Under the pieces are notes generated by a model. That model saw only the letters and a list, made by a program, of their open reading frames with translations, was not told the origin of the DNA and did no database searches. A stretch of DNA of 27,221 nucleotides from IMG/VR virus record IMGVR_UViG_3300033149_003269, positions 1 to 27,221 of that record; one strand, written 5' to 3'. Made by a program: the position numbers and the translations under genes. Source of the stretch: a virus. This document shows positions 3,701 through 23,617 of the stretch, piece after piece (the stretch's first letter is position 1; each line of letters opens with the position of its first letter).

Positions 3701-6700
3701 TCCCGTAAGTTCAAACTTAACCACCTTGCCATTGTTGGTAATAGCAATCTTATCTATGTTTAATCCCTTGAGAATATCGTGAAGATGTAAGACAAAATCG
3801 GGTTGTTTTTTGACCTGCGGTTTGGACTTTATAGTGGATTTTAATTGAGATAAGAAATTCTTATAATAATTGTATGTTTCCTGACGAATTTTATCCGCAG
3901 TTTTAACAACAGCAGGATGATTCCATAAATAACGAAGAACTGCATTATTAATTGCTAATGCTGACATTTGAGACTTATTAGGGTATCCCTCTAATGCCAT
4001 TTGTTTTATATCTTCCCAAGTCTTCCCCTTGAATTCAGGAACATATTGACTCACCCATTTTGCTAAATCCACAGCCCCCATATATTCTACCCTTGCAGCA
4101 TCTATAAATTTTTCAGGAACATTTAAATCATAGAGAGTTTTGTCTGTAATCTTGTAAATTTGTTCAATCAAATTATCAAAATCTTTTTGAGTAAATTTGG
4201 GTTTCTGTGATTCTTTAACCTGTTGTGTTACCAATTTCTTAACTGCTTTATTAAATTTATCTATATCTTCTACCTCAAATATCGCTTCATTATCACGAGT
4301 TTCTACTAATTTAAATCCCTGATTTTGTAATGTTTGGATTTGTTCGGGTGATAAACCTATTTGAGTAACTCTGGTGGGTTTAAATTCTTGAACAGATTCT
4401 TGAACCCTACCCTCTTTAACCTGTTTTACAAACTGTTTGAATTCCTCTGGATTTTCCACTTCAAATGTAAATGCTTTTTTAGTCTGGTCAGCTTTGATTA
4501 ATTGATACCCTGCATTCTCAATCTGGCGTATTTGGGCAAGGCTTAAATTCCTAATGGTTACTCTCCTTCTTTGCGGTACTCCAGCAGTTTTCCTCTTTCC
4601 ACGCTGTTGTCCTCGTACACCAAGCTCACCTGCTTCCCGAATACTAACGCCAGCTTCAGGTTCTCTGGGAACGGTGGGAACTCCACCACCTTCCCGTTCT
4701 CCAGCTCTACCTTCATATATGCGACCTTCCCGTTCATAAATTGCCTCCAGATTTTTTTGTAAATTATCTATATTGCTATGGTTTATTATATTAACTATTT
4801 TATCAAGTTTTGTCAAGTCCCCAATTCCAACTACAAGTTTGGGAACAAGTTTTCCACGAGTTCTAAACTTATTTTTGTAAAGATTAATCAATTCGTCAGC
4901 ACGACTTAAAGCTTCCTTACCTCTACCTTCTGCGGGCATAATGAAAGCCGTGAAACTTACTGGTAGGGTTTTACCGTCAGGCAATACTATTTCGGTATCC
5001 TCATCCAATAATGTTTTTAATTCTTCAGGACTATATTTGGTGGAAGTTATTACAAACTCATCTCCACCAGTCCTGAATATATAAACATCAGGGATGGATT
5101 TAGCTAACTGCACGAATTGATACAGGTATTCATCACCCACATTATGCTGATAATTATCATTAATATATTTCAAGCCATTCATATCTACCATACCGATGGA
5201 CTTAATATCGGAACGCTTGAGAGCTTCATCAAGAAGCTTGTTATTGCCCACATAGTCAATTTCACCCTCACCATTCCTGACTTCTCTAAAGTAAGTTCCT
5301 GTTGCATCTTCAATGTGTGCGAGTGCTTCTTCATCACCAGCAGAGGCTCTTTCTATGGTTTTTTGATAAACCTGTTGTTTGTTTTCAGGTATAAATTCTT
5401 TATATTGACTTAACAAATTGGTAAAGTTTTGTATCACCGATGAAGATACGGGGGTAGTAGGTGTGGGTGCGGGGACTGGTATTGGTGCTTCTACGGGAAC
5501 AGTAGGAGCAGGGGCTTCTGTTGGCACAGGTTGCACTTCTGGTACAGGAGTTTCTGATGGTGTAATAGTTTGTACTTCCTGTGCCTGTGTGGTTTGTAGA
5601 GCAGTCTGCACGGCATCATTGATAGCTTGTCTGAATGTTTTAATGTTTACAAATTTGTTAGCTATGCGTTTATATAATTGTGCTTGCACATTGGGATCAC
5701 TCAAAAATTCTGCAAGGTTTCTGGTCTCCAATCTAATATATTGGTTTAATGATTGTCCAGCTTTAGTAGGACGAGGATAACGAATGGTATATTGTTTCCA
5801 TATTTGTTCTCCAGTTGCCTTCATTAAATCATCAGCAATCTGTAAGGCATCTTGCATGGATAAATCGGGCTTCTGTTCTCTCAATACTTTAGCCAAATAC
5901 TGACGGGCAAAATCTCTCCTTAACTTTGGCTGTTGCCTTAACCCAAAATAAGTTAGTCCAAAATTCAATAAACCAAATTGTGTAGCTCTCTTATCATCTA
6001 ACCCCAACCCTTTTGCGTAAGCATAACCCGTAATAAATGAACCGATATAATGCGGTAATCTTGTTTCAATTTCAGTAATTTCTGGCAAGCGTAAAGTCTT
6101 ACCCAATCTCACCTGTTCTTTAACTGTTTCCTGTGTAAATCTCAATGCGGGAGAAGACAGTATCAAACCATTCATTGCACCAAAGGCAGCATCAAGAGCT
6201 GTATTGCGGGTCAATTCTTTGGTAATAAATTCTTTTTTAGCTTTCTCTGGTAATGTATCATAAACTTTAGCATATTCGGATAACCTAAACGCTTTACCAA
6301 GAGCCACCATATCAGCGGCATTATTTATCACATTGGTCAGAATACGAGCCACTTCAGGATTTTTAAACAGTCTCACCATACGAGTAGGTGATAATCCTTT
6401 TGATACTAAAGTAGAGGGAGCAATACCATTATTCAAGCCTGCCATTAATAAGACCAATCTACCTGCTGTTCCAGCCACATCACCCGCTACGGTTTGGGCT
6501 TTATATAATGGGTCTTGTTTTAATTCAGGATACAGTTTTTCCATTACCTGCTTATTCCTACGAGCCTCACCTAAAATGGGGTCAAAGTAATCTGCAAGCG
6601 TCCACCAGAAGCCTGCTTTATACTGTTTCACACGGTCTTTCGGAACCTTAACCGCTACCCGCTTCATACTGGTTTCCTTAATCTTTTCACTAATCTTCTG

Positions 6701-7261
6701 GGCTTCCTGCTTGGTAGTGGGACGAGTAGGATACATTTCGGCAGGTTTAATAAACTCTGGGAATTGCTTTTGCAATGTCTCAATAGTAATTAACGGTTTT
6801 TCAGGAATTTCTCCTTTTTGTAATTTGAGTAAATCTTCATAAGTTACAAATACTTCTTTAGGTGATTGAAGGAATTGCTGTCTCAATGTGGTATCTGTTG
6901 GCTGGGCAACCTGTGGAGTGGTCTCTACGGGAGTGGGTATTGGTGGTGTGATTTCTTCTGCCACTTGATATGCTTCCTCTGGGGTCATAGTAGTAGGTGG
7001 TTTGGGTATGAATTTATCCTTATACTGGTCATAATAGGTTTTAACTTTTACTGCCACCGGGTGATCATCAGGCAATTTCTTTAATATATTATCAACATCT
7101 TCGCCTTCTAATTGTCTGGTAATCGCCTGTGCGGTATAAATCTGAGCGATCAAATTCCATTTTAAGTTCTGCGGGATACGATTGTCTTGCAATACTCTAT
7201 TGGGGTCAATACCCGCCAGAATCTTTAATTCTTCAGGTTTTGCTTTCTCAAGGTAATTCAC
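716..7261 (-). CDS. Giant internal virion protein (gp16 position) with embedded GGDEF domain
   Basis: 2181 aa, starting at a GTG whose GTGA overlaps the previous stop, with GGGGG upstream. Visible layout: helical N-terminus; Pro-rich linker at ~86-123; helical region to ~555; Pro/Thr/Val linker at ~558-608; GGDEF domain ~640-803; Gly/Arg/Glu linker ~843-900; two copies of a ~55-60 aa module (~900-956 and ~964-1018); then a long, mostly helical C-terminal half with a strongly hydrophobic stretch at ~1906-1926. The position after two smaller internal-protein-like genes and before the fibre is that of T7 gp16, the 1318-aa core protein ejected into the cell and used to build the DNA conduit. The combination of giant size, linkers and an enzyme domain also fits the polyvalent-protein concept for proteins injected with phage DNA. 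No transglycosylase or protease motif was recognised. Ejection and conduit roles are inference; the GGDEF domain is seen directly. Confidence 0.85.
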   Translation of the reverse strand: MNYLEKAKPEELKILAGIDPNRVLQDNRIPQNLKWNLIAQIYTAQAITRQLEGEDVDNILKKLPDDHPVAVKVKTYYDQYKDKFIPKPPTTMTPEEAYQVAEEITPPIPTPVETTPQVAQPTDTTLRQQFLQSPKEVFVTYEDLLKLQKGEIPEKPLITIETLQKQFPEFIKPAEMYPTRPTTKQEAQKISEKIKETSMKRVAVKVPKDRVKQYKAGFWWTLADYFDPILGEARRNKQVMEKLYPELKQDPLYKAQTVAGDVAGTAGRLVLLMAGLNNGIAPSTLVSKGLSPTRMVRLFKNPEVARILTNVINNAADMVALGKAFRLSEYAKVYDTLPEKAKKEFITKELTRNTALDAAFGAMNGLILSSPALRFTQETVKEQVRLGKTLRLPEITEIETRLPHYIGSFITGYAYAKGLGLDDKRATQFGLLNFGLTYFGLRQQPKLRRDFARQYLAKVLREQKPDLSMQDALQIADDLMKATGEQIWKQYTIRYPRPTKAGQSLNQYIRLETRNLAEFLSDPNVQAQLYKRIANKFVNIKTFRQAINDAVQTALQTTQAQEVQTITPSETPVPEVQPVPTEAPAPTVPVEAPIPVPAPTPTTPVSSSVIQNFTNLLSQYKEFIPENKQQVYQKTIERASAGDEEALAHIEDATGTYFREVRNGEGEIDYVGNNKLLDEALKRSDIKSIGMVDMNGLKYINDNYQHNVGDEYLYQFVQLAKSIPDVYIFRTGGDEFVITSTKYSPEELKTLLDEDTEIVLPDGKTLPVSFTAFIMPAEGRGKEALSRADELINLYKNKFRTRGKLVPKLVVGIGDLTKLDKIVNIINHSNIDNLQKNLEAIYEREGRIYEGRAGEREGGGVPTVPREPEAGVSIREAGELGVRGQQRGKRKTAGVPQRRRVTIRNLSLAQIRQIENAGYQLIKADQTKKAFTFEVENPEEFKQFVKQVKEGRVQESVQEFKPTRVTQIGLSPEQIQTLQNQGFKLVETRDNEAIFEVEDIDKFNKAVKKLVTQQVKESQKPKFTQKDFDNLIEQIYKITDKTLYDLNVPEKFIDAARVEYMGAVDLAKWVSQYVPEFKGKTWEDIKQMALEGYPNKSQMSALAINNAVLRYLWNHPAVVKTADKIRQETYNYYKNFLSQLKSTIKSKPQVKKQPDFVLHLHDILKGLNIDKIAITNNGKVVKFELTGHQAKKGYRLIADYFETAKVGGIYPTSQREGLHYSYDDVKQVWGELPKGRQEFKLTDLEKANRIVNGHEDIINEVKDSPFKMRKGAIDAELFRQGLRFTLKSLPNSIFQRFKRELGLKVSNDELRKILADFPVGVEKVLDIYDMTYDEQTQYFKDMGYPKRFGSRRAEASQKRMIDNLIKNSQYDGEHIKQWIKEFLGADWEILRDTRKARRAKIEPLTYEEAIAIISSIKNYIPTKLRRIGIHPLYANYLFSENWNKPYISQTSTILNSAPLYYTPFWIVATAETVYEWLLNDMIEEAHTIIKKYQGLDFPSGKKGRKEQMKVWDLFDVRWNGRYAEHIPKDMSRIRQLPHSALIPFVLNGTLNESVLDKGENPELDRKAHECVKEIRRFYDKYAKLLQDKFKLPDEFFQEQYYHRIHDKHTEKWLKDKYPSLYTVLQKMRENVPLSVGMMREARNIPGFDLSWSNSLKHYAVSVARAIAYAPAAPFVIGMAKIGGVLDKGEGDLIKQYMVSSVLGRDLGREELQKLFHGHDIGNVMNLIRTGYYDATLLLNFRPMVKNIFQSFLTISVMGSRYFFGGWANMSKYLQDPKFRQLIKVGGVEQPGLYELPTETGRLRRIAAKFGVPYKAWKKVDLFNRMGVVAAVYEYGKANGWTQEEIERMAMQMLAITQWLYLVAARGMWQTTRAGSIMHKATAFVKWPTAFIFDHMGYLARKGLWGSLLYELFVGLFIAFLGWLIGVDITEHIMPHWGIIRRLKRKQLPSWMHQLWAFIHDWGKAGWFAMHGDVINLEAQWDTLKRKYYDIPTVVQWLKLYRAARHSSYLVDVYGDDIPWWHWTINVLMPTRRIKEMGIKIQEKRKYDNEYQKITGLVRRHLYNAYHTSNPEKMKKEMEKAYEIYRSFFIDPKIKEWALRHWFFIGDVYDINGKINEGAIFRRFLNYVSRYEDRLGTSSLERAYRTGVGHTPYTDLYIKMWEQGNAPNEPSLLEQFKKFMAK
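4208..4564 (-). repeat. Tandem duplication of a ~55-60 aa module in the giant protein
   Basis: Residues ~900-956 and ~964-1018 of the giant protein align without large gaps: RVTIRNLSLAQIRQIENAGY against RVTQIGLSPEQIQTLQNQGF, then FTFEVENPEEFKQFVKQV against AIFEVEDIDKFNKAVKKL. Each unit reads as strand - helix (LS-xQI) - strand - EVE/D strand - helix, so each is probably a small alpha/beta domain. The DNA copies have diverged and the repeat is only evident as protein. The pair lies directly after the Gly/Arg linker and the nested ORF. The function is unknown; a protein- or nucleic-acid-binding spacer is possible. Confidence 0.75.
4558..4737 (-). CDS. Candidate nested (overprinted) small gene within the giant gene
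   Basis: A 59-codon frame, offset from the giant frame, starts at an ATG at 4737 preceded by TGGAGG with six bases of spacing and ends at TAA (4558-4560). The product begins MNGKVAYMKVELENGK and ends KLLEYRKEGE. It reads like a small beta barrel: a hairpin around ENGK, then strands VSLVYEDNS and ERGKLLEY resembling SH3- or Sm-like strand pairs. In the giant frame the same bases give a low-complexity linker (EREGRIYEGRAGEREGGG). Counted G+C is 94 of 180 bases in 4561-4740, against 13 of 60 just beyond 4740 and 24 of 60 just below 4561. Caution: the region is also free of stops in plus-strand frames, and the ORF's G-rich third positions coincide with first positions of the giant frame, so an accidental ORF remains possible. 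Confidence 0.45.
   Translation of the reverse strand: MNGKVAYMKVELENGKVVEFPPFPENLKLALVFGKQVSLVYEDNSVERGKLLEYRKEGE
4853..5344 (-). other. GGDEF (diguanylate cyclase-type) domain inside the giant protein
   Basis: Residues ~640-803. The start has an EDATGTYF segment comparable to the usual D-LTG-NR entry motif. Then comes VDMNGLKYINDNYQHNVGDEYL, read in pieces: metal-binding D693 in VDMNGLK, guanine-contacting N701 in IND and D710 in VGDEYL; the normal Gly of NxYGH is Gln705. The signature RTGGDEFV places G732 G733 D734 E735 F736, a full active-site loop. Downstream, LPVSF and ALSRADELINLYKNKF match the closing strand and the L-rAD-aly-AK helix of the fold. Positions 723-726 read IPDV, so the RxxD product-inhibition site is absent. 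Known GGDEF enzymes make cyclic di-GMP from two GTP as dimers; some homologues make other cyclic dinucleotides or only bind GTP, so the exact product is open. Confidence 0.9.
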
Positions 7262-8184
7262 TTATTACCCCCTGATAACCAGCTGGCTAATCCCTCTACG
7301 GTAGAAGGTAAAGTATCAGATGCGGTGTTAGTTGGCGTAGGTGCTTCAAACGGTTTCAAGCCTGCTTGCGGTGCATAAGTGTTAATAGCATCTACAAGAT
7401 ACTGAATCTGAGCATTCACCAAATCCATCAATTCCTTAGGAGAAGCTTGATTAACATCAATGCCATACTTTTGGGCAATACCAGACATAGCGGCTCTCAG
7501 GCGAGGATCATTGGGATTTTGAGAGAGCTTGCGAGCCAAATCTACCCATTGTCTTAAATCATCAATTAATTTAGAGACATTATTCAAAGCATTTTTCTGT
7601 ATTGTAGTAGTTAATTGAGGATTTCTTCTGCGGGATTCTGCTAAAGCCTTATAGCTTTCAGCTTGTGATTTAATTCTCTCTATCTCCGCTTGTGTTTTGG
7701 GTTGTTTAAGTTTGTATTCCTCTTGAAGCAATTGTTTTTGCAACTTAAACTGTTCTTGGAGTTTTTGTAATTCTCTCTGGAATTGTTTTTCATCTTCTTC
7801 AGCTTTCTGCCGTAATGCATCCGCTATCATCTTCTGTTTCTGAAGTTCAGCCATCTTCTGCATTATGGTTTGAGTGAGTGCTTGAGTAGGTTGAGACATA
7901 CCCGCCATAGCCTGTGCAGAAACCGTATAAGGATTCAAACCCGCTTTCCTTGCTTGTATGGAAGCTATTAGTCCCGAAATTACGGGTGCAAGCATAGAAC
8001 CCCATACTAAATAAGGAGTAGCTTTCCCATATGTAAACTCAGCAACATCGCGAGGTGTAACCGTAACATCTGGCACTTGTGGAGTAGAAATATTAATAGG
8101 CAATTGATTAGAAACCCCTTGTCGTCTCAAAGCACGCTGAACAATATTGTTTATAATAGCATTGACATCATAAGTTGCCATCAT
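7258..8184 (-). CDS. Internal virion protein (gp15 position), coiled coil
   Basis: 308 aa. It starts at the first of two consecutive ATGs, after AGGAGGGGG; the second ATG is equally possible. Residues ~55-80 hold a hydrophobic, Gly/Ala-containing stretch (YLVWGSMLAPVISGLIASI) that could associate with membrane. From ~105 to ~190 the sequence is Lys/Gln/Glu-rich with regular hydrophobic spacing (FQRELQKLQEQFKLQKQLLQ), a clear coiled coil. The C-terminus is Pro/Thr-rich then ends GLASWLSGGNK. The gene overlaps the giant gene by 4 nt. In T7-like phages the three genes before the fibre encode internal core proteins that are ejected ahead of DNA; this one is in the middle (gp15) slot, but is much shorter than T7 gp15 (747 aa), so homology is not claimed. 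Confidence 0.65.
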   Translation of the reverse strand: MMATYDVNAIINNIVQRALRRQGVSNQLPINISTPQVPDVTVTPRDVAEFTYGKATPYLVWGSMLAPVISGLIASIQARKAGLNPYTVSAQAMAGMSQPTQALTQTIMQKMAELQKQKMIADALRQKAEEDEKQFQRELQKLQEQFKLQKQLLQEEYKLKQPKTQAEIERIKSQAESYKALAESRRRNPQLTTTIQKNALNNVSKLIDDLRQWVDLARKLSQNPNDPRLRAAMSGIAQKYGIDVNQASPKELMDLVNAQIQYLVDAINTYAPQAGLKPFEAPTPTNTASDTLPSTVEGLASWLSGGNK

Positions 8185-13952: not shown

Positions 13953-14341
13953 ATCACATACAACCTCTCTTTAAGTTCACTCTTGACTACCCAATCTACA
14001 AAATCTTCTTCTTCTCTTTCCCTCCGTCTGCGGGCTTCATATTCGGCTTCATCTATTAGCCTGCCAATACCTCTGTCCTTCATCACAGAGCTATCATACC
14101 ACGCCTTTTGCAATTGAGCCTGAACATACATATAGCCAGGTTTCTCATCTCTGGATAACCGCATAAACGGTGTTAGATGGGTATCACTTACAAAAGCTAT
14201 GTGCCAAGTTCTCCAAGCACGGTCATATACCAGATACCAGCGTGGATGATACCTATGAAGCAAGCGTATCCAATCCTTATCCAAATCTATTATGAATCGG
14301 GAGGGGTGCGGAGACCCCTCCCAGACTCTATAATTAATCAT
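13949..14341 (-). CDS. Hypothetical protein following the capsid gene
   Basis: 130 aa. The ATG shares one base with the stop of the capsid gene (TGATG), so it is expressed with it. The N-terminal half is rich in Trp, His, Arg and Tyr (RLLHRYHPRWYLVYDRAWR, TWHIAFVSD); the C-terminal half is a highly charged helix (IDEAEYEARRRREREEEDF). The N-terminal pattern around 'HPRWYLVYDRAWRTWHI' resembles small phage proteins found near capsid genes, but I cannot name a family. No Cys and no membrane segment are seen. A capsid-connected or assembly role is inferred from gene order only. Confidence 0.7.
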   Translation of the reverse strand: MINYRVWEGSPHPSRFIIDLDKDWIRLLHRYHPRWYLVYDRAWRTWHIAFVSDTHLTPFMRLSRDEKPGYMYVQAQLQKAWYDSSVMKDRGIGRLIDEAEYEARRRREREEEDFVDWVVKSELKERLYVI

Positions 14342-15612
14342 CAGCTGAAGTCGAAGTCGTTTGCCATCTTGATTATCTTACCTTGTACGGGCGGGAGCGA
14401 GCAGGCGAACTGACCTGTGTAGGTGAGGACAGCTCTCAGCACCTGTGGAGTGGAGAGGGAATCGGGATGCAGTATCTCACCACCGAGTTTCATCCATTCG
14501 GGTTTCTTGGCGTATTTGAACTCAAGATAATCGAAGTGAGGCAGATAGAGAACACCAGGAGGAACAAGGGGATCGTAGTAAACATCTACACCATCAACTG
14601 TGATGTAGAAATTCCCGTAGTCGAGGTCTTTCTTAGTAGCGGAGCTTATCTGATAGGTTACGGAGTCAATTATGTCAGCTTCGAGTTTTTCGAGCTGTTT
14701 CCTTGTGGTGAAGGCAACATTGTATTTGGTCACATCCACATCGTAGGGAAGGTTCTCTATTTCATAGAGCAGGTCTCTTATCTTCTGAACTGTAAGGTTA
14801 GCACTTCCACCAGCATCCACAACGGTTCCATTCCAGAAAGCATTGGAAGAAGAATCTATGTTATGGAGTGTTCTGCTTGTGCTGGCTATGAATCCGAAGG
14901 AGTTTACAGTTTTGCCATACATACCCTGGGCATAAATATTTACATCAGCACTTGCGGTAATAGAAATGTTAGAGCCTATGGCGGCAAGTGTTACGGTCTT
15001 TCTATCGCTGTTAATTCCAGTTACAATAGCGGTTCCCTTCTTTGTGGAACCCTCGTAGAGGTCAACCACCATACCTATTCTGAGGAACCAAGCACCATAG
15101 GAAGGGGTAGAACCAGTAGGTGTAGCATTGAGAGCTATTGAAGTTCCACTTGTGGATATTGTGGTTCCAGAACCACCATCAGTATAGGTAGCAAGCACAT
15201 TATTGGTAGCAGGCAGATACCAATGGAACTTAATGTGTTTTACAAGATTTTCGGATACATCGGTATAGAGCTTGGCGGCAAGAGCCTTAATGGATTCAGG
15301 GCTGGCACTTCTGTCTATCGCTTTCTTTGTGATTTTCTGGAAGGCTATGATGTCCACCATGGAGTCATAGGGCTGTATCATTGATGGAGTGCTGGAATAT
15401 CCTATCTGGTCAGTCAGCGAGTCCATATCGTACCCCTGGAAGCCACCACCCTTTGCATACTCAACAGTCACATAGAATTTCTCATTGTCCTTCTTCTGGA
15501 CGATACCAGAGAAGAACTTGTTGTCCTTCTTGAATTTCACTTCTACCATATCAGGTAGCTTTTTCAGAAGAACATCAAGATAATTCGCCATTTGAATGAC
15601 TGTGTTAGCCAT
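14341..15612 (-). CDS. Major capsid protein, HK97-like fold inferred
   Basis: 423 aa, with a strong AAAAGGAGG site upstream. It follows portal and scaffold, as a podophage capsid gene should. Sequence pattern: N-terminal arm with IQPYDSMVDIIAFQKITKKA and a long helix ending in KHIKFHWYLPATN (~100-137); a beta-rich inserted segment at ~140-232 (TTISTSGTSIALN, AWFLRIGMVVDLYEG, KTVTLAAIGSNISI); then VQKIRDLLYEIENLPYD helix, TRKQLEKLE, and GVDVYYDPLVPPGVLYLP near the C-terminus. The insertion and the 'DxYxDPLVPPGVLYL' end pattern are commonly seen in HK97-fold coat proteins. No protease gene is visible nearby, so maturation probably depends on the separate scaffold. The HK97 fold is an inference from pattern and position. 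Confidence 0.85.
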   Translation of the reverse strand: MANTVIQMANYLDVLLKKLPDMVEVKFKKDNKFFSGIVQKKDNEKFYVTVEYAKGGGFQGYDMDSLTDQIGYSSTPSMIQPYDSMVDIIAFQKITKKAIDRSASPESIKALAAKLYTDVSENLVKHIKFHWYLPATNNVLATYTDGGSGTTISTSGTSIALNATPTGSTPSYGAWFLRIGMVVDLYEGSTKKGTAIVTGINSDRKTVTLAAIGSNISITASADVNIYAQGMYGKTVNSFGFIASTSRTLHNIDSSSNAFWNGTVVDAGGSANLTVQKIRDLLYEIENLPYDVDVTKYNVAFTTRKQLEKLEADIIDSVTYQISSATKKDLDYGNFYITVDGVDVYYDPLVPPGVLYLPHFDYLEFKYAKKPEWMKLGGEILHPDSLSTPQVLRAVLTYTGQFACSLPPVQGKIIKMANDFDFS

Positions 15613-17283: not shown

Positions 17284-17514
17284 TTATAAATTCAAGGGGA
17301 GTTTGCGTCCGTAATATTTCTTTGACGCGTTTCTCCCCTTCTTTGTAAGTTTCAATGTCCCCTTGCGTAGATAACCCTTTTCTTGTGCGGTATCTACTGC
17401 TATTGCAATAGCTTGAGATTTGGTTATTTTCTTACCTCTTTTACGATATTGCTGTATAATTCTACCAGCGTACCATTCCACGATTTTCGGGATTTTACCA
17501 CCTCTACCTGGCAT
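17284..17514 (-). CDS. Basic small protein downstream of the portal gene
   Basis: 76 aa. The ATG overlaps the end of the portal gene by 11 nt and has GGGAGG upstream. The sequence is strongly basic: GKIPKIVEWYAGRIIQQYRK, ITKSQAIAIAVDTAQEKGYL, then LKLTKKGRNASKKYYGRK. The central SQAIAIAVDTAQEKGYL and the GTLKLTKKGR strand-turn resemble a small domain seen in other phage proteins with 'A-AIA---(q)-gyl--gt-kLT-KGR', unassigned as far as I know. Probably a DNA-contacting or packaging-associated accessory protein, by charge and location only. Confidence 0.7.
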   Translation of the reverse strand: MPGRGGKIPKIVEWYAGRIIQQYRKRGKKITKSQAIAIAVDTAQEKGYLRKGTLKLTKKGRNASKKYYGRKLPLNL

Positions 17515-19513
17515 TTTCTAAACCTCCCATTTCTGGGTTGGGATTCTGTTGCATTTTGGGTTGCACATAAGGTGCTATCTGTTTCTGTAATACACTCTGC
17601 AACATATTGCCAGGTTGACTAAACACGCCCCCCATCATCTGCATATGCATTTCTACCATTGAGGTTATAAATATCCTCGCCCAAGCTGGATACTCCAGAT
17701 ATTCAGGACTTTTTACTATCTCATAATGAACCTCAAGGTGCATCTTGTGGTCGTCCCACGGTTTGGGTTCTATCTTATCAAGAATCTCTTTGAGTTTAGC
17801 CATTTCATCTTTGTGAGCTTCAAGCCAAGCTTCTACTATTTCAGGTTCTGCACCAATAATATCCTCAAAACCATCAAGTTTAAGTTTCAAAAGTTCTTCT
17901 TTGATTATCTTATTTTCAGCTTTAGCCATTTTTTCGTCTCTTGATCTATCAACTACCAGATATCCGATACCAGCTTTGCGATAAAATTCTTCCACAATTT
18001 TCTTTGCCTCATAATCCTTAGGGTCTTTGGCGAGTCTCTGGAGGGCGTCCTGTAAAGCAAGTTCTGTCATTTGCTGTTTGGTGTAGGGAAGTTCAGTGCC
18101 TAATTTAACAACAATGTCTGCTTGTGTTATCTTCTCCTTCTTGAATTCAAGAATAATAGGTTCGTCATCATCGCCAAGATAACGCATAATTCTCTGTTTA
18201 TCCCAATAACCATAAACATCCTTCTGGACATCATAGATAATCAGCTCTGCCACTTTTCTGAACATGTATTCCAGCGGTTTGGCATTCGGGGTTTTAATGT
18301 ATTCAGAATACAGTTTTGACAATTCTCTTGCCTTACCGCTTGCACTTGCAGGTGCTCTACCGTAATCAATTTCGTGTATGGTTAGGCTATCCTGATATTC
18401 CCTGCGAAGCAGTTCGTAAATTGCCTGCCACGATTGTGGAATACCGGGACCAGGTTGCAATTTGGGTATCTGATTTTGACCTACAAGTGTGGGGTCATAG
18501 AAGATAAACGAACCTGGCTCTATCTTTACATCGTCGGGTATCGAACCCTCTGGGGCAAGTCCTATGAGATTGCCCGCCAGCATCATATTATGGAGCATCA
18601 AACTCCAGATAATGTTTTGCACGCTCTGCAATACCCTACCAATATCAATCGGTGTCCTGCCAATGTAAGAACCCGGTACTTTAAAATAAGAAGCATAGAC
18701 AACGGGCAAGTGTTCGCCATAGGGATTATCACCCTCATAGAGAATATTACCAGAATAATCAAACTTGATTAACTTGCCCTTATCACCCTGACCTCTGGCT
18801 CTGCGGTAATACTCGATTATAACAATGGTCTCTTTATCGTCTCTGTTCTTAACAAAGCGGTCAAATGTGTAAGGATAATCAGAAACCTCAATGTTGGGAT
18901 ACCATTCCTTTGCCACATCTCTGTTAAGTGTCCTGATGAGGAAACAGTCTATCTGGTCATCGTAATCCTCTATGTGCGGGTCAAACATAAACTCGAATGG
19001 TGTCAGTGGTCTCAAAACATACTTCAACCTGCGAAGAGGCTTACCGTCAGCGCTGGGTATATCGTACTCATAACCCAGCTCGTACCCCTTGAAAAGACCA
19101 ACTGTACCGAATAATACATATTTCAACAGCAAATCGTAAAGCTTGTGGTCAAAAAGCCCCTGTTCCCAGAACAACGCCTCAACAAACCTCTGCGTGTATT
19201 CGGCTTTTTCTTTATCCTCATCGCTTACGGTTCTGGGTATTGCAGTAATGTAGGGTGGTCTGGACATAAAAGAAGCCACGAGAACATGGGCATCATTGGG
19301 TATCCTGTTGGCTTTCACCCTGAATGGGAACAGTTCGTTAATATCCTCATCTTCTGCTAAATCCTCTACATTACCAGTAGAATCTATGCTCACCCACATC
19401 TGATTATTGTAAAACAGGTAATTGCGTTTCCATTTCGGGAATTTATCCCTTATGGCTTCCTCAATCTTTTTAAATCTTTCGTAATACGGATTGCTTTCTA
19501 CTTTCTTTGCCAT
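17504..19513 (-). CDS. Portal protein
   Basis: 669 aa with CTGGAGGAG upstream. The portal is the dodecameric ring at the packaging vertex. Visible support: N-terminal ...VKANRIPNDAHVLVASFMSR (~67-85), then a helix followed by KYVLFGTVGLFKGYE (~131-145) and RPLTPFEFMFDPHIED (~168-183), which is the 'V-P-eF-DP' wing pattern of podophage portals; YIGRTPIDIGRVLQSVQNII (~283-302) starts the long stem helix region; SASGKARELSKLYSEYIK is the usual C-terminal domain entry. The last ~40 residues are Met/Gln/Pro-rich (QPGNMLQ, QKQIAPYVQPKMQQNPNPE) and could form the barrel or a flexible tail. It is flanked by terL upstream and scaffold/capsid downstream, as expected. Confidence 0.9.
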   Translation of the reverse strand: MAKKVESNPYYERFKKIEEAIRDKFPKWKRNYLFYNNQMWVSIDSTGNVEDLAEDEDINELFPFRVKANRIPNDAHVLVASFMSRPPYITAIPRTVSDEDKEKAEYTQRFVEALFWEQGLFDHKLYDLLLKYVLFGTVGLFKGYELGYEYDIPSADGKPLRRLKYVLRPLTPFEFMFDPHIEDYDDQIDCFLIRTLNRDVAKEWYPNIEVSDYPYTFDRFVKNRDDKETIVIIEYYRRARGQGDKGKLIKFDYSGNILYEGDNPYGEHLPVVYASYFKVPGSYIGRTPIDIGRVLQSVQNIIWSLMLHNMMLAGNLIGLAPEGSIPDDVKIEPGSFIFYDPTLVGQNQIPKLQPGPGIPQSWQAIYELLRREYQDSLTIHEIDYGRAPASASGKARELSKLYSEYIKTPNAKPLEYMFRKVAELIIYDVQKDVYGYWDKQRIMRYLGDDDEPIILEFKKEKITQADIVVKLGTELPYTKQQMTELALQDALQRLAKDPKDYEAKKIVEEFYRKAGIGYLVVDRSRDEKMAKAENKIIKEELLKLKLDGFEDIIGAEPEIVEAWLEAHKDEMAKLKEILDKIEPKPWDDHKMHLEVHYEIVKSPEYLEYPAWARIFITSMVEMHMQMMGGVFSQPGNMLQSVLQKQIAPYVQPKMQQNPNPEMGGLENAR

Positions 19514-19517
19514 TTAT

Positions 19518-19736
19518 TCACTCCTCCAGCATGCCTTTAAGTTTATTCATAGCCTTTTTAATTCTTGGATTGTGCTTCACTTTAACCTTTTTATCCAGAG
19601 GCACGGGCTTATCGTTAAGCAATAACACCATATCCCGTAAATACTTAACTATGCGAATCATACCGTAAACAACAGCAAACACGATTAAAGCTATCAAGAA
19701 TAATTCAACCAAAACCAGCACCTCAACCAACGACAT
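19518..19736 (-). CDS. Small single-pass membrane protein (holin-like candidate)
   Basis: 72 aa from the ATG at 19736, chosen because AAAAGGAGG lies right before it; a longer frame from 19793 has no such site and overlaps terL further. The gene overlaps the terL stop by 14 nt and ends 4 nt before the portal gene. Residues ~4-28 are one hydrophobic helix (VEVLVLVELFLIALIVFAVV), followed by a charged cytoplasmic-type tail with many Lys (KKVKVKHNPRIKKAMNKLK). Small single-pass proteins with a charged tail can be holins, spanin partners or membrane anchors; placement between terL and portal is not diagnostic. No signal peptidase site or lipobox is seen. Confidence 0.75.
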   Translation of the reverse strand: MSLVEVLVLVELFLIALIVFAVVYGMIRIVKYLRDMVLLLNDKPVPLDKKVKVKHNPRIKKAMNKLKGMLEE

Positions 19737-21330
19737 AACGCCTCCTTTTGGGTTTAATACCCATAATTTCATTGTATCTTTCCACATATTCACGCCAGCT
19801 CATGGGCTTGCTGGCATCAAAATTTTCTTTCTTGTCTTTCTTATTGCGTTTTTCTGTTTTTATCCGATCTCTTTCCTCGGTAGCGATTATATATCGAATA
19901 GCGTCCCAGGTATGTTCTTTACCGTGTTTTGCCCCCAATTTTGACCATTCGTAAGCCTGTGTAATAACATTTTTGCAATTTTCGGTAATAAATAGCTGGT
20001 CATGGGCAAACAAATTATTTAAAATGCTTACTCCTGTCATCAATCTTTGATAAACGGCACGGAATTTGATTGCAATACCTAAATCATTCAAAGCCTTTTC
20101 CAAATCTTTCATATTCTGCCTATTATCATCAGAACGCATACCACCCGTTGGGTCACAATAAGCCTCTTTAAATTGCTCCGGGAAATTGATTTTCTTTTGC
20201 AAAATCCTCGTAATAGAAGCAATAGTCTGTGCATGTCTAACATTGTCCAAGCCCGGTTGCTGATATTCAAAAACCACAAACCATTTGCCATTTTCCGGGT
20301 TTCTCACTACCCACACGGCAGCAAATGGTTCATCCACACCAAAGTCAACACCAAGATAGGCTTCCCAGCCATCGGGTATCTTGAAACGCTTGACAATATG
20401 TTTTTCATCATCAAATTGGTAAAGCACTCTATTTCCCATATCCAGCCACTCACCAAAAAACCGCATTCTGAATAGGATGGGATCCCAATCATCCTGTGCC
20501 TTTATAACTTCATCAAAATCATAAGTAGGATTTAAAAATGAAGGGAACATAATGGTCAAAATGTTCGGATCCCCATTTCTCTTTTCCCACACACGCCTTA
20601 CTACATTACGGGCTTGTAAAACATTGGGAGGCAACCAACCATACTCTTCGTAAACTTCCATTGCCTTATCCATATCAACATCAAATTTCAAAATCCTACC
20701 TCGCTTCACTATCTGTGTCTTCACCCAATTAGGACGATACGGAGTAGTAGTCATCAATAGTTTCCCCTTATTCCTTCTTAATCTATCCACCATTACCCTA
20801 TAAGCTTTTTCATCGATAACAGTAGGTGGATCATCAAACCCAATCTCATCACACCATACAAAATGTGCGTGTATCCCTTCAATAGCATGAGGTTGTGCTG
20901 CATTGCGGAAATAAAATGTGGTTCCCCTATAAGGTTCTTCAGTAACCGTAAAACAATATTTAGGTTGCCCTCGCCAATCACCTAATCCAAATATATCGCG
21001 AAACCAGTACCTAAATTCTTCACCGATGATACCCTCAAGTCTCTTATAATCAGGCCCCATAATTATCATCTTACCCGGCACACCATACTGCCTGTGAACC
21101 ACATCCATCATGAAATAAGACAGCAAAATCCCAAATGCAGTTTTACCACCACCTGTTCCCGCACTTAACAAAATCTGATTCGGCACCACCTCATACTCCG
21201 CAGGGTCATAATTACCCCACACCCATAATTTCAAAACCTCTTCCTGTGCCACATGCGGGTTAATCTGCAAATACCCATTACTATCCACCCAGAATAATTC
21301 ACGCCTCATATCAAGTGAAGTTTTTAACAT
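19723..21330 (-). CDS. terL: Terminase large subunit (packaging ATPase and nuclease)
   Basis: 535 aa. The N-terminal ATPase has Walker A SAGTGGGKTA (56-65), Walker B HFVWCDE (156-162, with catalytic E162) and coupling motif LLMTTTP (191-197). The C-terminal RNase H-like nuclease has acidic D329 (YLGVDFG), D393 (YCDPTG) and D476 (HTWDAIRY), all present. The enzyme docks on the portal, pumps DNA into the capsid and cuts it. The start at 21330 has no visible Shine-Dalgarno site, nor does the next ATG (21309). A promoter -10 box lies only 10 bases upstream of the first ATG, so the message may be leaderless. The C-terminal ~50 residues are basic and charged (RNKKDKKENFD, KPKRRRYVVG), beyond the nuclease core. 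The probable small subunit is encoded 2.3 kb upstream on the same strand, beyond a plus-strand cassette. Confidence 0.95.
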   Translation of the reverse strand: MLKTSLDMRRELFWVDSNGYLQINPHVAQEEVLKLWVWGNYDPAEYEVVPNQILLSAGTGGGKTAFGILLSYFMMDVVHRQYGVPGKMIIMGPDYKRLEGIIGEEFRYWFRDIFGLGDWRGQPKYCFTVTEEPYRGTTFYFRNAAQPHAIEGIHAHFVWCDEIGFDDPPTVIDEKAYRVMVDRLRRNKGKLLMTTTPYRPNWVKTQIVKRGRILKFDVDMDKAMEVYEEYGWLPPNVLQARNVVRRVWEKRNGDPNILTIMFPSFLNPTYDFDEVIKAQDDWDPILFRMRFFGEWLDMGNRVLYQFDDEKHIVKRFKIPDGWEAYLGVDFGVDEPFAAVWVVRNPENGKWFVVFEYQQPGLDNVRHAQTIASITRILQKKINFPEQFKEAYCDPTGGMRSDDNRQNMKDLEKALNDLGIAIKFRAVYQRLMTGVSILNNLFAHDQLFITENCKNVITQAYEWSKLGAKHGKEHTWDAIRYIIATEERDRIKTEKRNKKDKKENFDASKPMSWREYVERYNEIMGIKPKRRRYVVG

Positions 21331-21340
21331 ACTGTCTATA

Positions 21341-21368
21341 TTAATACCCGCAAAATCCCAACTGTCAA
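21341..21368 (-). promoter_or_regulatory. Candidate sigma70 promoter for the terL-virion operon
   Basis: On the minus strand TTGACA (21363-21368) matches the -35 consensus exactly, and TATTAA (21341-21346) stands 16 bases downstream as -10. The expected start site is near 21334, leaving about four bases before the terL ATG. The GATA array begins 20 bases upstream of the -35 box, where an activator or repressor could contact polymerase. Confidence 0.6.
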
Positions 21369-21388
21369 ATTCCAGAAGATACCATATT

Positions 21389-21421
21389 GATATGCTATTG
21401 ATACGCTATCGATAGGTTATC
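21389..21421. repeat. Array of three 11-bp GATA-N3-TATC units (iteron/operator-like)
   Basis: Three contiguous 11-mers in perfect register: GATATGCTATT (21389-21399), GATACGCTATC (21400-21410), GATAGGTTATC (21411-21421). A fourth GATA starts at 21422. Each unit is itself a dyad, GATA and TATC around three bases; the first has TATT instead of TATC. The 11-bp period puts all units on nearly the same DNA face. It could be an operator for the terL promoter or initiator-binding iterons. Confidence 0.7.
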
Positions 21422-21427
21422 GATATT

Positions 21428-21463
21428 AAGAATAAGAATTAGAATAAGAAAGAGAATAATAAT
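21428..21463. repeat. Purine-rich hexamer tract next to the GATA array
   Basis: Six hexamers in register: AAGAAT, AAGAAT, TAGAAT, AAGAAA, GAGAAT, AATAAT, followed by an AT-rich TATATATAT run near 21467-21475. Such an easily melted, strand-biased tract beside repeats is typical of a DNA-unwinding element, but could also be an UP-like element for nearby promoters. Confidence 0.6.
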
Positions 21464-21682
21464 TAATATATATATGCAATTTTTCTGCCAAAATTATAGT
21501 TAACGGAAGCGAAGTTATACCAACGGATTCCTCACTTTAACTATGTTCACAGAGTAAAAATTTGGTGGTAATTAATAAAACAATATTTACATATATCGCT
21601 TGTGAAAAATGTAACTTTTAAAACATTAATACCCCTTATTCCAAATTACTCTCATTGGCCAATAAATTATACCTGTTTTTGT

Positions 21683-21711
21683 TTGACTTGCCCGATATGG
21701 CGAAATATACC
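21683..21711 (+). promoter_or_regulatory. Possible plus-strand promoter inside the intergenic region
   Basis: TTGACT (21683-21688), 17 bases, TATACC (21706-21711). The match is moderate. A transcript from here would have a leader of nearly 600 nt before the first plus-strand gene or would be a non-coding RNA. Confidence 0.3.
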
Positions 21712-21991
21712 CCAAAATATAAGAAATTTTACATATAGCTATACCCCTTGCTGGTTAATAAGCAAAGAAATGGTTTAATGTCTCCCCATTGTTAGGGAAT
21801 AAATACCTAAAAATTAGGGCTTAAACACACAAAAGTGATTGAATGGTTTAATAGTGTTGGTGTGAGAGAAGGGTTTGGACGGTTTTTCGGGCGGGATTGC
21901 GATTGATAATTGACTCCGATTTCACCCCGGTGGGGGTTAATACTTCTCTACTCTCGCAATAATTTGAGAGGGGCATAGTTTTTGCAAGGGA

Positions 21992-22011
21992 AACATAATC
22001 AATGTTATGTT
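21992..22011. repeat. Inverted repeat AACATAA-N6-TTATGTT
   Basis: AACATAA at 21992-21998 and TTATGTT at 22005-22011 with a 6-base spacer TCAATG. A perfect 7-bp dyad in AT-rich DNA, possibly a repressor half-site pair for the plus-strand cassette; no protein in the window can be linked to it. Confidence 0.3.
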
Positions 22012-22239
22012 AACTTGACCATTTTCACCCTAAATTGGACTCCAAAACGGTTGAGACACAACAAAAATACGGTTTTGAGGGTTGTTTCTGGTAAAATTGG
22101 TGTTAAAACGGGCTTAAAATTGGGTTTTTAGGTGGTGGGCATGACCCCATCCATCATTTTGGTTTACCATTCATTTAATTATTGTGGTATTTATTGGTCT
22201 TGGTTTGTATTTTAATGGCGTATATCTTGTAATTACTAC

Positions 22240-22268
22240 TTGAAATTTTATTTTAAATCCCTTATATT
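22240..22268 (+). promoter_or_regulatory. Sigma70-type promoter for the plus-strand cassette
   Basis: TTGAAA (22240-22245), 17-base spacer, TATATT (22263-22268). The expected start is near 22275, with AGGAGG at 22282-22287 and ATG at 22295. This is the best-formed promoter seen in the window and implies early transcription by host polymerase. Confidence 0.7.
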
Positions 22269-22294
22269 ATAACCATAACAAAGGAGGTTTTGCG

Positions 22295-22507
22295 ATGTAC
22301 ACAATTAAAACGGGTCATACTTTATACCGGTTTAGTGATTATTGCAAGGCATTAGAGAAATTTAAAAAACTGTGGAAGCAGAGAAAAGAGGCGACCTTAT
22401 GGAAGGATAATGAACTGATTGGGGCGATCTATCGAGTAGAAAAACAAATAAAAGGGAAATATAATTATTATATCGATTTAGACAAATTACAGGAGGTCTC
22501 AAAATGA
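22295..22507 (+). CDS. Small hypothetical protein, first gene of plus-strand cassette
   Basis: 70 aa, AGGAGG seven bases before the ATG and a good promoter just upstream. It is basic and Tyr/Lys-rich (YRFSDYCKALEKFKKLWKQ, KGKYNYYIDLDKLQEVSK), with a likely helix followed by a short strand pair. No family is recognised. As the first gene behind a host-type promoter, transcribed against both neighbouring blocks, it may be an early host-interaction gene; this is inference from layout. Its stop overlaps the next ATG (ATGA). Confidence 0.7.
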   Translation: MYTIKTGHTLYRFSDYCKALEKFKKLWKQRKEATLWKDNELIGAIYRVEKQIKGKYNYYIDLDKLQEVSK

Positions 22508-22734
22508 GGTATAATCACAAATTGATACAAAAGGCAATAGAACATCCGGGACGGGAATTCTTCTCCCGGCCAATCCGTTCAGGTGAGAGTACGAGGGTAT
22601 ATATAGGAGTTGATATAAATGGCGATGGATTCGCTGAAGTTGTAGAAATCTGGAAAGCTACATATTATTACGGCGGTAATGGTAAAAGGCGGTTGGATTA
22701 CGAGCCTCTAGACATTTTAGAAGTGGGAGAATAA
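22504..22734 (+). CDS. Small hypothetical protein with an EF-hand/dockerin-like loop
   Basis: 76 aa, start in the ATGA overlap with the previous gene and GGAGGT a few bases upstream. Residues 37-48 are DINGDGFAEVVE. This has acidic or amide ligands at loop positions 1, 3, 5 and 12 and Gly at 6, as in a canonical calcium-binding EF-hand loop; it equally matches the D-NGDG-A/xDxV turn of FG-GAP-type units. The flanks are beta-like (STRVYIGV before, VEIWKATYYYGG after), so it is not a helix-loop-helix EF-hand. The rest is unknown. Metal binding is a hypothesis only. Confidence 0.7.
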   Translation: MRYNHKLIQKAIEHPGREFFSRPIRSGESTRVYIGVDINGDGFAEVVEIWKATYYYGGNGKRRLDYEPLDILEVGE

Positions 22735-22736
22735 AA

Positions 22737-22847
22737 ATGAAGCACATATTTAAACATATAATAAACGCAATAATGTTGAGATACTTATTTGTTAAACTCA
22801 CAATTCAGACTTACAAATCAATTAAGAAATATAAACAGGAGGTTTAG
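22737..22847 (+). CDS. Possible very small basic protein (36 aa)
   Basis: ATG at 22737, two bases after the previous stop, with GGGAG at 22725-22729 seven bases upstream, and a stop at 22845-22847 just before the next ATG (22849). The product starts MKHIFKHIINAIMLRYLFVK and ends in a basic Lys/Tyr tail; it could form an amphipathic, membrane-seeking helix. The tidy spacing to both neighbours favours a real gene. Its last codons contain the AGGAGG site of the next gene. Too short to judge by composition. Confidence 0.45.
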   Translation: MKHIFKHIINAIMLRYLFVKLTIQTYKSIKKYKQEV

Positions 22848-22848
22848 A

Positions 22849-23271
22849 ATGTTAACTGCCATAAAACAATTAAAAGAGTGGACAGTGCAGGATAAAAAAC
22901 TTAAAGTTATGTTTCAACGCTTGGACACTTTAAAAGCAGACTACGACACTAAAATTAAGCTAATCGAAGCACAGTTACAAAAAGAATTCCCCAATTGGCA
23001 AAAGAGAGTTAAGGCGGGCGATGAGGAATATTTAAATCGTTTTGTAGATCGTGACATGGAATTACATGCACAATTTGGTTTAGAACGGTTAGAAATGGAA
23101 ATAATAGAATTGGAACGGGCAATTGTAGATTATGGACTTAATATTATGATTCAGAGAGGAAAAGAGCTTGGCAAACCTACTGAACCATTGGAACAGCTAA
23201 AAGCAGAATTAAAACGGCTCCCATTCTTTCGTGAAGTTGCACTTAAAATATTACGCAAAAGCTTACAATAA
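22849..23271 (+). CDS. Coiled-coil hypothetical protein
   Basis: 140 aa from the ATG at 22849, chosen because AGGAGG (22837-22842) lies directly before it; a frame open further upstream has no such site. The protein is almost entirely helical and highly charged (QDKKLKVMFQRLDTLKADYD, LERLEMEIIELERAIVDYG), consistent with a helical bundle or coiled coil dimer. No Cys is present. No family recognised. It is in the middle of the plus-strand cassette. Confidence 0.7.
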   Translation: MLTAIKQLKEWTVQDKKLKVMFQRLDTLKADYDTKIKLIEAQLQKEFPNWQKRVKAGDEEYLNRFVDRDMELHAQFGLERLEMEIIELERAIVDYGLNIMIQRGKELGKPTEPLEQLKAELKRLPFFREVALKILRKSLQ

Positions 23272-23277
23272 TAATCC

Positions 23278-23296
23278 GCCCCGCCTTGTGCGGGGC
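23278..23296 (+). other. GC-rich hairpin without T-run in the plus-strand cassette
   Basis: GCCCCGC (23278-23284), loop CTTGT, GCGGGGC (23290-23296), a perfect 7-bp GC stem. It is followed by TGTCTTAATAAAA, not a T-run, so full termination is unlikely. It may stabilise the mRNA end, pause polymerase or block translation read-through between the two genes. Confidence 0.5.
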
Positions 23297-23321
23297 TGTC
23301 TTAATAAAAAGGAGGTATAAA

Positions 23322-23567
23322 ATGCAAGTATTAAGACACTACACAAGAGAAGAAATCAAAACCCTCATAAAAGAGGGCAAAGCAATAGAAGTCAATAGGG
23401 TCAGCGGTGTGGTCTGGGTTCGCAAGTCTTCCCGCCGTGTGTATGTCTGTACATATAATCCTAATTGGGGAGTATATACCAATTGCTATATTGCTCCAAT
23501 TAAGCCGAGTGTGTGGGAAGCATGGCAAAAACAATATTGGTTAGAAGGAGGTGAAAGGATAAACTAA
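23322..23567 (+). CDS. Small aromatic-rich hypothetical protein
   Basis: 81 aa from the ATG at 23322, preceded by AAAAAGGAGG; an in-frame extension upstream would run through the hairpin and is not supported. N-terminal helix (YTREEIKTLIKEGKAIEV), then beta strands rich in Trp, Tyr and Val (GVVWVRKSSRRVYVCTYN, GVYTNCYI), then a Trp-rich end (VWEAWQKQYWLEGG). Looks like a compact alpha/beta fold. It is the last gene before the terminator. No family recognised. Confidence 0.7.
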   Translation: MQVLRHYTREEIKTLIKEGKAIEVNRVSGVVWVRKSSRRVYVCTYNPNWGVYTNCYIAPIKPSVWEAWQKQYWLEGGERIN

Positions 23568-23587
23568 ACCAAATTATGTTAAACTTG

Positions 23588-23617
23588 GGGCGGGGATCTT
23601 CTCCCCGCCCTTTTTTT
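23588..23617 (+). terminator. Intrinsic terminator of the plus-strand cassette
   Basis: GGGCGGGGA (23588-23596), loop TCTTC, TCCCCGCCC (23602-23610), then seven T (23611-23617). A textbook Rho-independent terminator placed 20 bases after the last plus-strand stop. On the other strand the hairpin is not followed by a T-run, so it is mainly unidirectional, though it lies at the end of the converging minus-strand gene. Confidence 0.9.

Follow-up and report, generated by a model that had tools for sequence, protein, structure and literature searches.

Does a phage send a working diguanylate cyclase into its host inside a giant virion protein? The question arises from a linear viral contig of 27,221 bases, hereafter the window (the whole stretch of DNA analyzed; IMG/VR record IMGVR_UViG_3300033149_003269), in which an earlier note had pointed to a complete GGDEF motif series inside a 2181-aa reading frame and had placed the protein where T7-like phages encode gp16, which is ejected into the cell. 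That frame is present on the minus strand (Table 1). Its GTG start shares bases with the stop of the 308-aa gene before it (GTGA), and a purine-rich GGGGG stretch lies upstream. Here, we show that residues ~660–807 are a genuine, intact-looking GGDEF domain. The earlier note had proposed a profile search and a structure prediction, and the assignment holds in both: Pfam PF00990 matches the protein significantly (34.1 bits against a cut-off of 23.8; E = 2.9e-8), and the AlphaFold model matches diguanylate cyclase structures including PleD. A six-frame GGDEF search at the DNA level gave 38.9 bits (E = 1.2e-11) over profile positions 23–155 of 161. A profile built from 80 viral-contig relatives with the window left out scored the giant protein at 75.3 bits (5e-22), whereas 2000 shuffled versions peaked at 6.7, so the match is not due to chance. 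The best solved relative by sequence search is E. coli DosC (3e-8). All residue numbers given previously are exact (D693, N701, D710, GGDEF 732–736, RAD 787–789); the domain limits, placed at 4853–5344 (residues 640–803), are shifted by the profile and the model to those in Table 1.

Table 1. Features of the window, with the evidence for each
Feature	Position	Strand	Evidence
Giant protein, 2181 aa	716..7261	(-)	ORF list and start-region sequence
Sole strongly hydrophobic stretch (residues 1902-1928), which may be a membrane segment	1478..1558	(-)	Hydropathy scan
Glycine/arginine/glutamate-rich linker after GGDEF, residues 843-900	4562..4735	(-)	Composition scan
GGDEF (diguanylate cyclase) domain, residues ~660-807	4841..5284	(-)	Pfam, profile envelope 660-807, AF2, Foldseek
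RAD helix SRADELINLYKNKFRTR	4856..4906	(-)	K796/R800 or K798/R802 in place of PleD K442/R446
GGDEF hairpin, residues 732-736	5054..5068	(-)	Alignment and AF2 model
Substrate and metal loop DMNGLKYINDNYQHNVGD (D693, K698, N701, D710)	5132..5185	(-)	Alignments
Proline-rich linker before GGDEF, residues 559-609	5435..5587	(-)	Composition scan
308-aa protein just upstream of giant gene	7258..8184	(-)	Weak tape-measure/coiled-coil-like: phrog_339 E=0.005, phrog_7086 E=3.6e-5
Two adjacent SU10-type adaptors, 229 and 249 aa	12512..13952	(-)	Pfam PF24175 2.2e-17, 9.4e-9
Major capsid protein	14341..15612	(-)	phrog_9953 1.7e-6
Portal protein, P22/SU10 type	17504..19513	(-)	Pfam PF16510 1e-9
Large terminase	19723..21330	(-)	phrog_2 9.8e-38; PF17289

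The predicted fold is that of a diguanylate cyclase. AlphaFold2, run on residues 615–840 with 58 relatives in the alignment, returned a mean pLDDT of 81.5 and a pTM of 0.77, with most of the core above pLDDT 90. Foldseek placed DosC first against the PDB (4zvf, the GTP-alpha-S form; TM 0.73 of target, rmsd 2.8, E = 1.5e-8), followed by PleD, SiaD, WspR, and DgcR, and GGDEF-domain proteins make up the 50 best PDB matches listed (top E about 1e-8). The best matches in a viral library were gp350 of Bacillus phage G and the diguanylate cyclase of Bacillus phage SP-15. The active site is described by comparison with PleD, whose corresponding residues are D327, N335, D344, E370, E371, K442, and R446. 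In the alignment D693 corresponds to D327, N701 to N335, D710 to D344, and D734/E735 to E370/E371, the spacing from D327 through N335 to D344 is unchanged, and the main catalytic, metal, guanine, and phosphate positions are kept; which Lys/Arg pair of the RAD helix is equivalent to that of PleD hinges on a 2-residue gap. That these positions are retained despite the high divergence of the domain points to selection for function. A cGAMP-type product was set aside for this domain because it has both of the guanine-contact residues, N701 and D710; a serine/asparagine base choice has been described in this polymerase class (PMC12657218).

Two familiar GGDEF signatures are degenerate or absent. 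The N-terminal DxLTGLxNR pattern reads IDYVG-NNK in the window domain, with the Asn kept, and is also unmatched in 6 of the 16 giant-protein relatives described below; the pattern is common in GGDEF domains, is associated with signal transmission, and is not essential for catalysis. The RxxD product-inhibition site is lacking, with I723 and V726 at the positions of PleD R359 and D362. The earlier note was right about the absence, which is nothing special: only 25 of the 80 bacterial rows compared match RxxD (as does 1 of the 16 giant-protein domains), so its loss is common and gives no sign of special design.

The position of the gene bears on where the protein goes. The minus-strand genes run from a DnaD-like loader and a DnaB helicase through terminase, portal, a 381-aa ORF in the scaffold position between portal and capsid, capsid, and two SU10-type adaptors to proteins of 1026, 147, 192, and 308 aa and, last, the giant protein. 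The giant gene therefore lies in the virion gene block, as had been claimed. Its place behind the terminase, portal, capsid, and adaptor genes would fit a short-tailed phage whose giant protein is kept inside the virion or ejected from it, and we consider such an internal or ejected role likely. The parallel with T7 gp16 found no backing in a gp16-type Pfam or PHROG match, and the P22/SU10-like portal and SU10-like adaptors give no support for calling the phage T7-like. Searches of IMG/VR with the giant protein, its C-terminal part, the domain, the terminase, and the capsid as queries returned no close relative of the phage, and the portal had no match among recorded phages. The DnaD-type loader together with a GC content of 39% hints at a Bacillota host.

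Several observations concern the window at large. BLASTP detects no similarity between the two adjacent adaptor genes, although both match the SU10 adaptor family. Between the terminase and the replication genes lie ~2.3 kb (21331–23600) holding only small plus-strand ORFs (70, 76, 160, and 93 aa) that run opposite to all main genes; an Rfam scan of this interval matched no family, and Rfam and tRNA scans of the whole window gave no matches. Outside the GGDEF domain, the giant protein matched no known family in Pfam or PHROGs, with no recognizable gp16, transglycosylase, or LPD domain in either and no second domain of any kind by Pfam (LPD, PBECR, ART, MPTase, SNF2, or other). Its C-terminal 694 aa had no match among recorded phages, and an AlphaFold2 model of residues 1480–2181 made without relatives was helical and carried no confidence (pLDDT 41). 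Residues 901–951 and 965–1010 (window 4232–4561) resemble two copies of a ~48-aa unit with the pattern LSxxQIxxxxxxGxxLxx...FEVExxxxFxxxVK; BLASTP between the two copies gave no alignment.

Other environmental viruses show the embedded-GGDEF arrangement as well. A scan of IMG/VR for matches to alignment A1, which is not a census, kept 80 loci, 16 of them in ORFs of 1451–3757 aa (L011, L014/L016, L024, L035, L036, L038, L043, L046, L049, L057, L058, L064, L073, L081, and L083). Because L014 and L016 are identical and L038, L043, and L073 are mutual relatives, these amount to 13 distinct proteins. Thus, besides the window protein, at least 13 different giant proteins have a GGDEF domain within them, and some share other regions with each other. 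In a Pfam scan of six giants, all exceeded the GGDEF cut-off and five carried other recognized domains, mostly of polyvalent type (LPD38, PBECR5, InPase, Eco57I, helicase, LPD22, ddrB-ParB, ART-PolyVal, LPD1, and LPD5 across the five); in L083, GGDEF is the sole domain recognized. Genes neighboring the giants include those for virion structural, tail, endolysin-type, and tail-spike proteins, and several giant genes follow virion or tail genes; that of L024 has an endolysin/transglycosylase-like gene on one side and a tail spike gene on the other. By hhalign, the window protein has no similarity to the other giants outside GGDEF, a comparison of little power with mostly single-sequence profiles. 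That GGDEF occurs in giant proteins so unlike one another elsewhere suggests selection for the activity.

Within the alignment, the equivalents of D693, K698, N701, D734, and E735 are invariant in all 16 giant-protein domains, and that of D710 is Asp in 12 and Asn in 4. The domains with Asn at the PleD D344 position (L046, L058, L083, and the second domain of L081) may differ in product specificity. The L081 protein has two GGDEF domains ~300 aa apart (L081:6990-8399), the second with GN for GD; this arrangement could allow the two to pair within one chain.

The window domain may belong to one old phage family or may have been captured separately. In a tree restricted to viral rows, it clusters with the domains of the giant proteins and YuA (split 96/81) and has the longest end branch (3.07). 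Adding the closest bacterial cyclases moves it to the bacterial side, beside them (SH-aLRT 83), where its nearest neighbor is a cyclase from Erysipelotrichaceae (47% identity over 76 aa). It also lacks the C-terminal KxxRxxxGxRxxRGExPP tail of the phage clade, in place of which stands KNKFRTRGKLVPK. The bacterial placement and the missing tail favor a GGDEF captured separately from a bacterial diguanylate cyclase, outside the giant/YuA phage clade; the viral-only grouping speaks against this, as does an AU test that does not reject a single clade of window and giants (p = 0.65). We give separate capture slightly less than an even chance, and it is compatible with any functional reading. A shortened C-terminal half ending KxxRxxxGxRxxRGxxPP is found in the free-standing YuA gp44-type domains (L007:5875-6342 and L008:5923-6378) and in many giant-protein GGDEFs, and judged by its sequence this shared half possibly marks a phage-specific GGDEF subfamily.

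A search of bacterial genomes with alignment A3 returned ordinary bacterial cyclases only. Faecal records labeled "Bacteriophage sp." also matched the domain, and the four that we opened (MT838099, MT836492, MT836119, and MT836213; L002-L005, all from human faeces) are pieces of bacterial chromosome bearing ordinary GGDEF or GGDEF-EAL proteins next to PTS, DnaE, acetyl-CoA hydrolase-like, and other host genes. Since they look like chromosome fragments, they served only as bacterial comparison rows, with the caveat that three of them seeded alignment A1. Such records are a trap for phage-based counts of GGDEF domains.

What, then, might the domain do? We lean, with modest confidence, toward a catalytically competent GGDEF that a probably short-tailed phage carries, as a cassette between linkers, in a giant protein of its virion module and delivers with the DNA. 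Virion packaging, ejection, dimerization, catalysis, product, and biological effect are the steps that we infer around the domain, fold, residue conservation, and gene position computed here. Several copies of the giant protein would be packaged in the particle and reach the cell together with the DNA. Diguanylate cyclases act as dimers, and here two GGDEF domains, each with GTP, would pair to make c-di-GMP; the cassette would be free to fold and pair because it is flanked by linkers on both sides. D693 with D734/E735 would serve metals and catalysis, N701 with D710 would hold guanine, and the helix Lys/Arg would contact phosphate. Without RxxD, product inhibition by that route would not operate. 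As infection begins, the c-di-GMP made could shift what c-di-GMP controls in the host (its surface, motility, or stress state), or it could engage cyclic-nucleotide sensors. Against a delivered cyclase stands the remainder of the giant protein, which matches no known ejection protein; an active enzyme would also have to dimerize inside so large a chain, whose sequence offers no recognizable sensor or dimerization domain, and the DxLT signature linked to signal transmission is degenerate. The amount made may also be small, because only a few copies of an ejected protein would enter the cell. A handful of molecules working at about 0.1–1 per second yields tens to a few hundred c-di-GMP per minute, corresponding to at most a few hundred nM in a bacterial cell, an output that would not matter unless the signal is local or host phosphodiesterase activity is weak.

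This low-copy limit would not apply if an active cyclase acted late, the giant protein being made with the structural genes and raising c-di-GMP in the producing cell (e.g., for surface or lysis functions) with little role at entry. Genes of the structural block are normally transcribed late, which would give far more copies than a virion delivers, and YuA-type phages carry a related free-standing domain outside the virion genes, so that entry is not needed for the cyclase idea. A purely late cytoplasmic role would not, however, need fusion to a giant virion-block protein, an arrangement that recurs in unrelated giants, and we regard late action as unlikely. Catalysis itself might be absent, since some GGDEF domains act as GTP sensors and sequence likeness does not prove activity; the domain would then bind GTP or c-di-GMP as a nucleotide sensor or structural module. 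The great divergence of the domain, the want of a clear DxLT signature and of a recognized dimerization element, and the variation among related giants, 4 of 16 with Asn for D344 and some with an altered GGDEF motif (SGDEF, HGDEY), agree with such a role. Degenerate GGDEFs, however, usually lose catalytic positions including the acidic residues of the motif, whereas the catalytic positions examined are intact in the window domain, both of those acidic residues included, which makes a noncatalytic role decidedly unlikely. If the phage were long-tailed and the ORF its tape-measure or another tail protein, the protein would never reach the cytoplasm and its cyclase would be cut off from host GTP. 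This is highly improbable given the SU10-type adaptors and P22/SU10-type portal, the lack of a recognized tail-tube or tail-terminator gene before the giant ORF, the multi-linker architecture, and the intracellular enzyme domains (helicase, methylase, ART) of related giants, even though the 308-aa neighbor weakly matches tape-measure proteins, a 112-aa protein weakly matches a major tail protein, and the contig is cut at its left end, where an ORF runs off and any downstream tail genes lie outside view.

If the delivered cyclase is the correct reading, its meaning would extend beyond this phage. The tools that phages are known to use against nucleotide signaling mostly break down host signals or sequester them; a virion protein making a second messenger would be the opposite move, ahead of phage gene expression. 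We also entertain, as a tentative idea on the doubtful side, that a lineage outside the known polyvalent families independently put a working cyclase into an ejected virion protein, so that a c-di-GMP enzyme arrives before the phage expresses its genes. Were this true, repeated independent capture would make c-di-GMP control at entry a general need of some phages. The window protein and the at least 13 distinct giants, mostly with near-invariant active sites, provide concrete constructs for a simple enzyme assay. The general hypothesis of an injected GGDEF that interferes with nucleotide signals is already published (Iyer et al. 2017; PMC5512222), and in the open-access literature we found no direct test of an injected GGDEF enzyme in the time since.

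Comparison with known systems places the window protein more precisely. Like T7 gp16, it is long and encoded near the end of the structural block; it has no sequence or domain homology (Pfam, PHROGs) to that protein, which combines a lytic transglycosylase with a long helical body. The domain shares fold, active-site residues, and spacing with the cyclases PleD and DosC and differs from them in being embedded in a giant phage protein, in its degenerate DxLT and missing RxxD, and in having no recognized sensor or dimerization domain. Phage G gp350 (254 aa) and the SP-15 cyclase (183 aa) are likewise phage-encoded GGDEF folds; unlike the embedded window domain, they are small and free-standing, and the neighborhood of gp350 has no annotated virion genes. 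YuA and Vojvodinavirus (YuA gp44) also encode a GGDEF-family domain with the same core residues, in their case as a separate protein of ~155 aa outside the virion block, with VSGDEF/IAGDEF variants, a shorter C-terminal half, and a RAARGxxPP-type tail. Lysogens of LK3, a member of the YuA-like group, form more biofilm (hyperbiofilm), with the enzyme not proven as the cause (PMC8471281). There is also a parallel in design with the polyvalent proteins of phages and prophages, in which GGDEF domains were reported as "not very widespread" and were proposed to interfere with host nucleotide responses (Iyer et al. 2017; PMC5512222): here, too, a giant protein in a virion gene block has an internal GGDEF for which the same role is proposed. 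Polyvalent proteins have at least two recognized domains, often including LPD, whereas by Pfam the window protein shows GGDEF only. It is thus a new, divergent example of the GGDEF-bearing giant phage proteins, and one without a second known domain.
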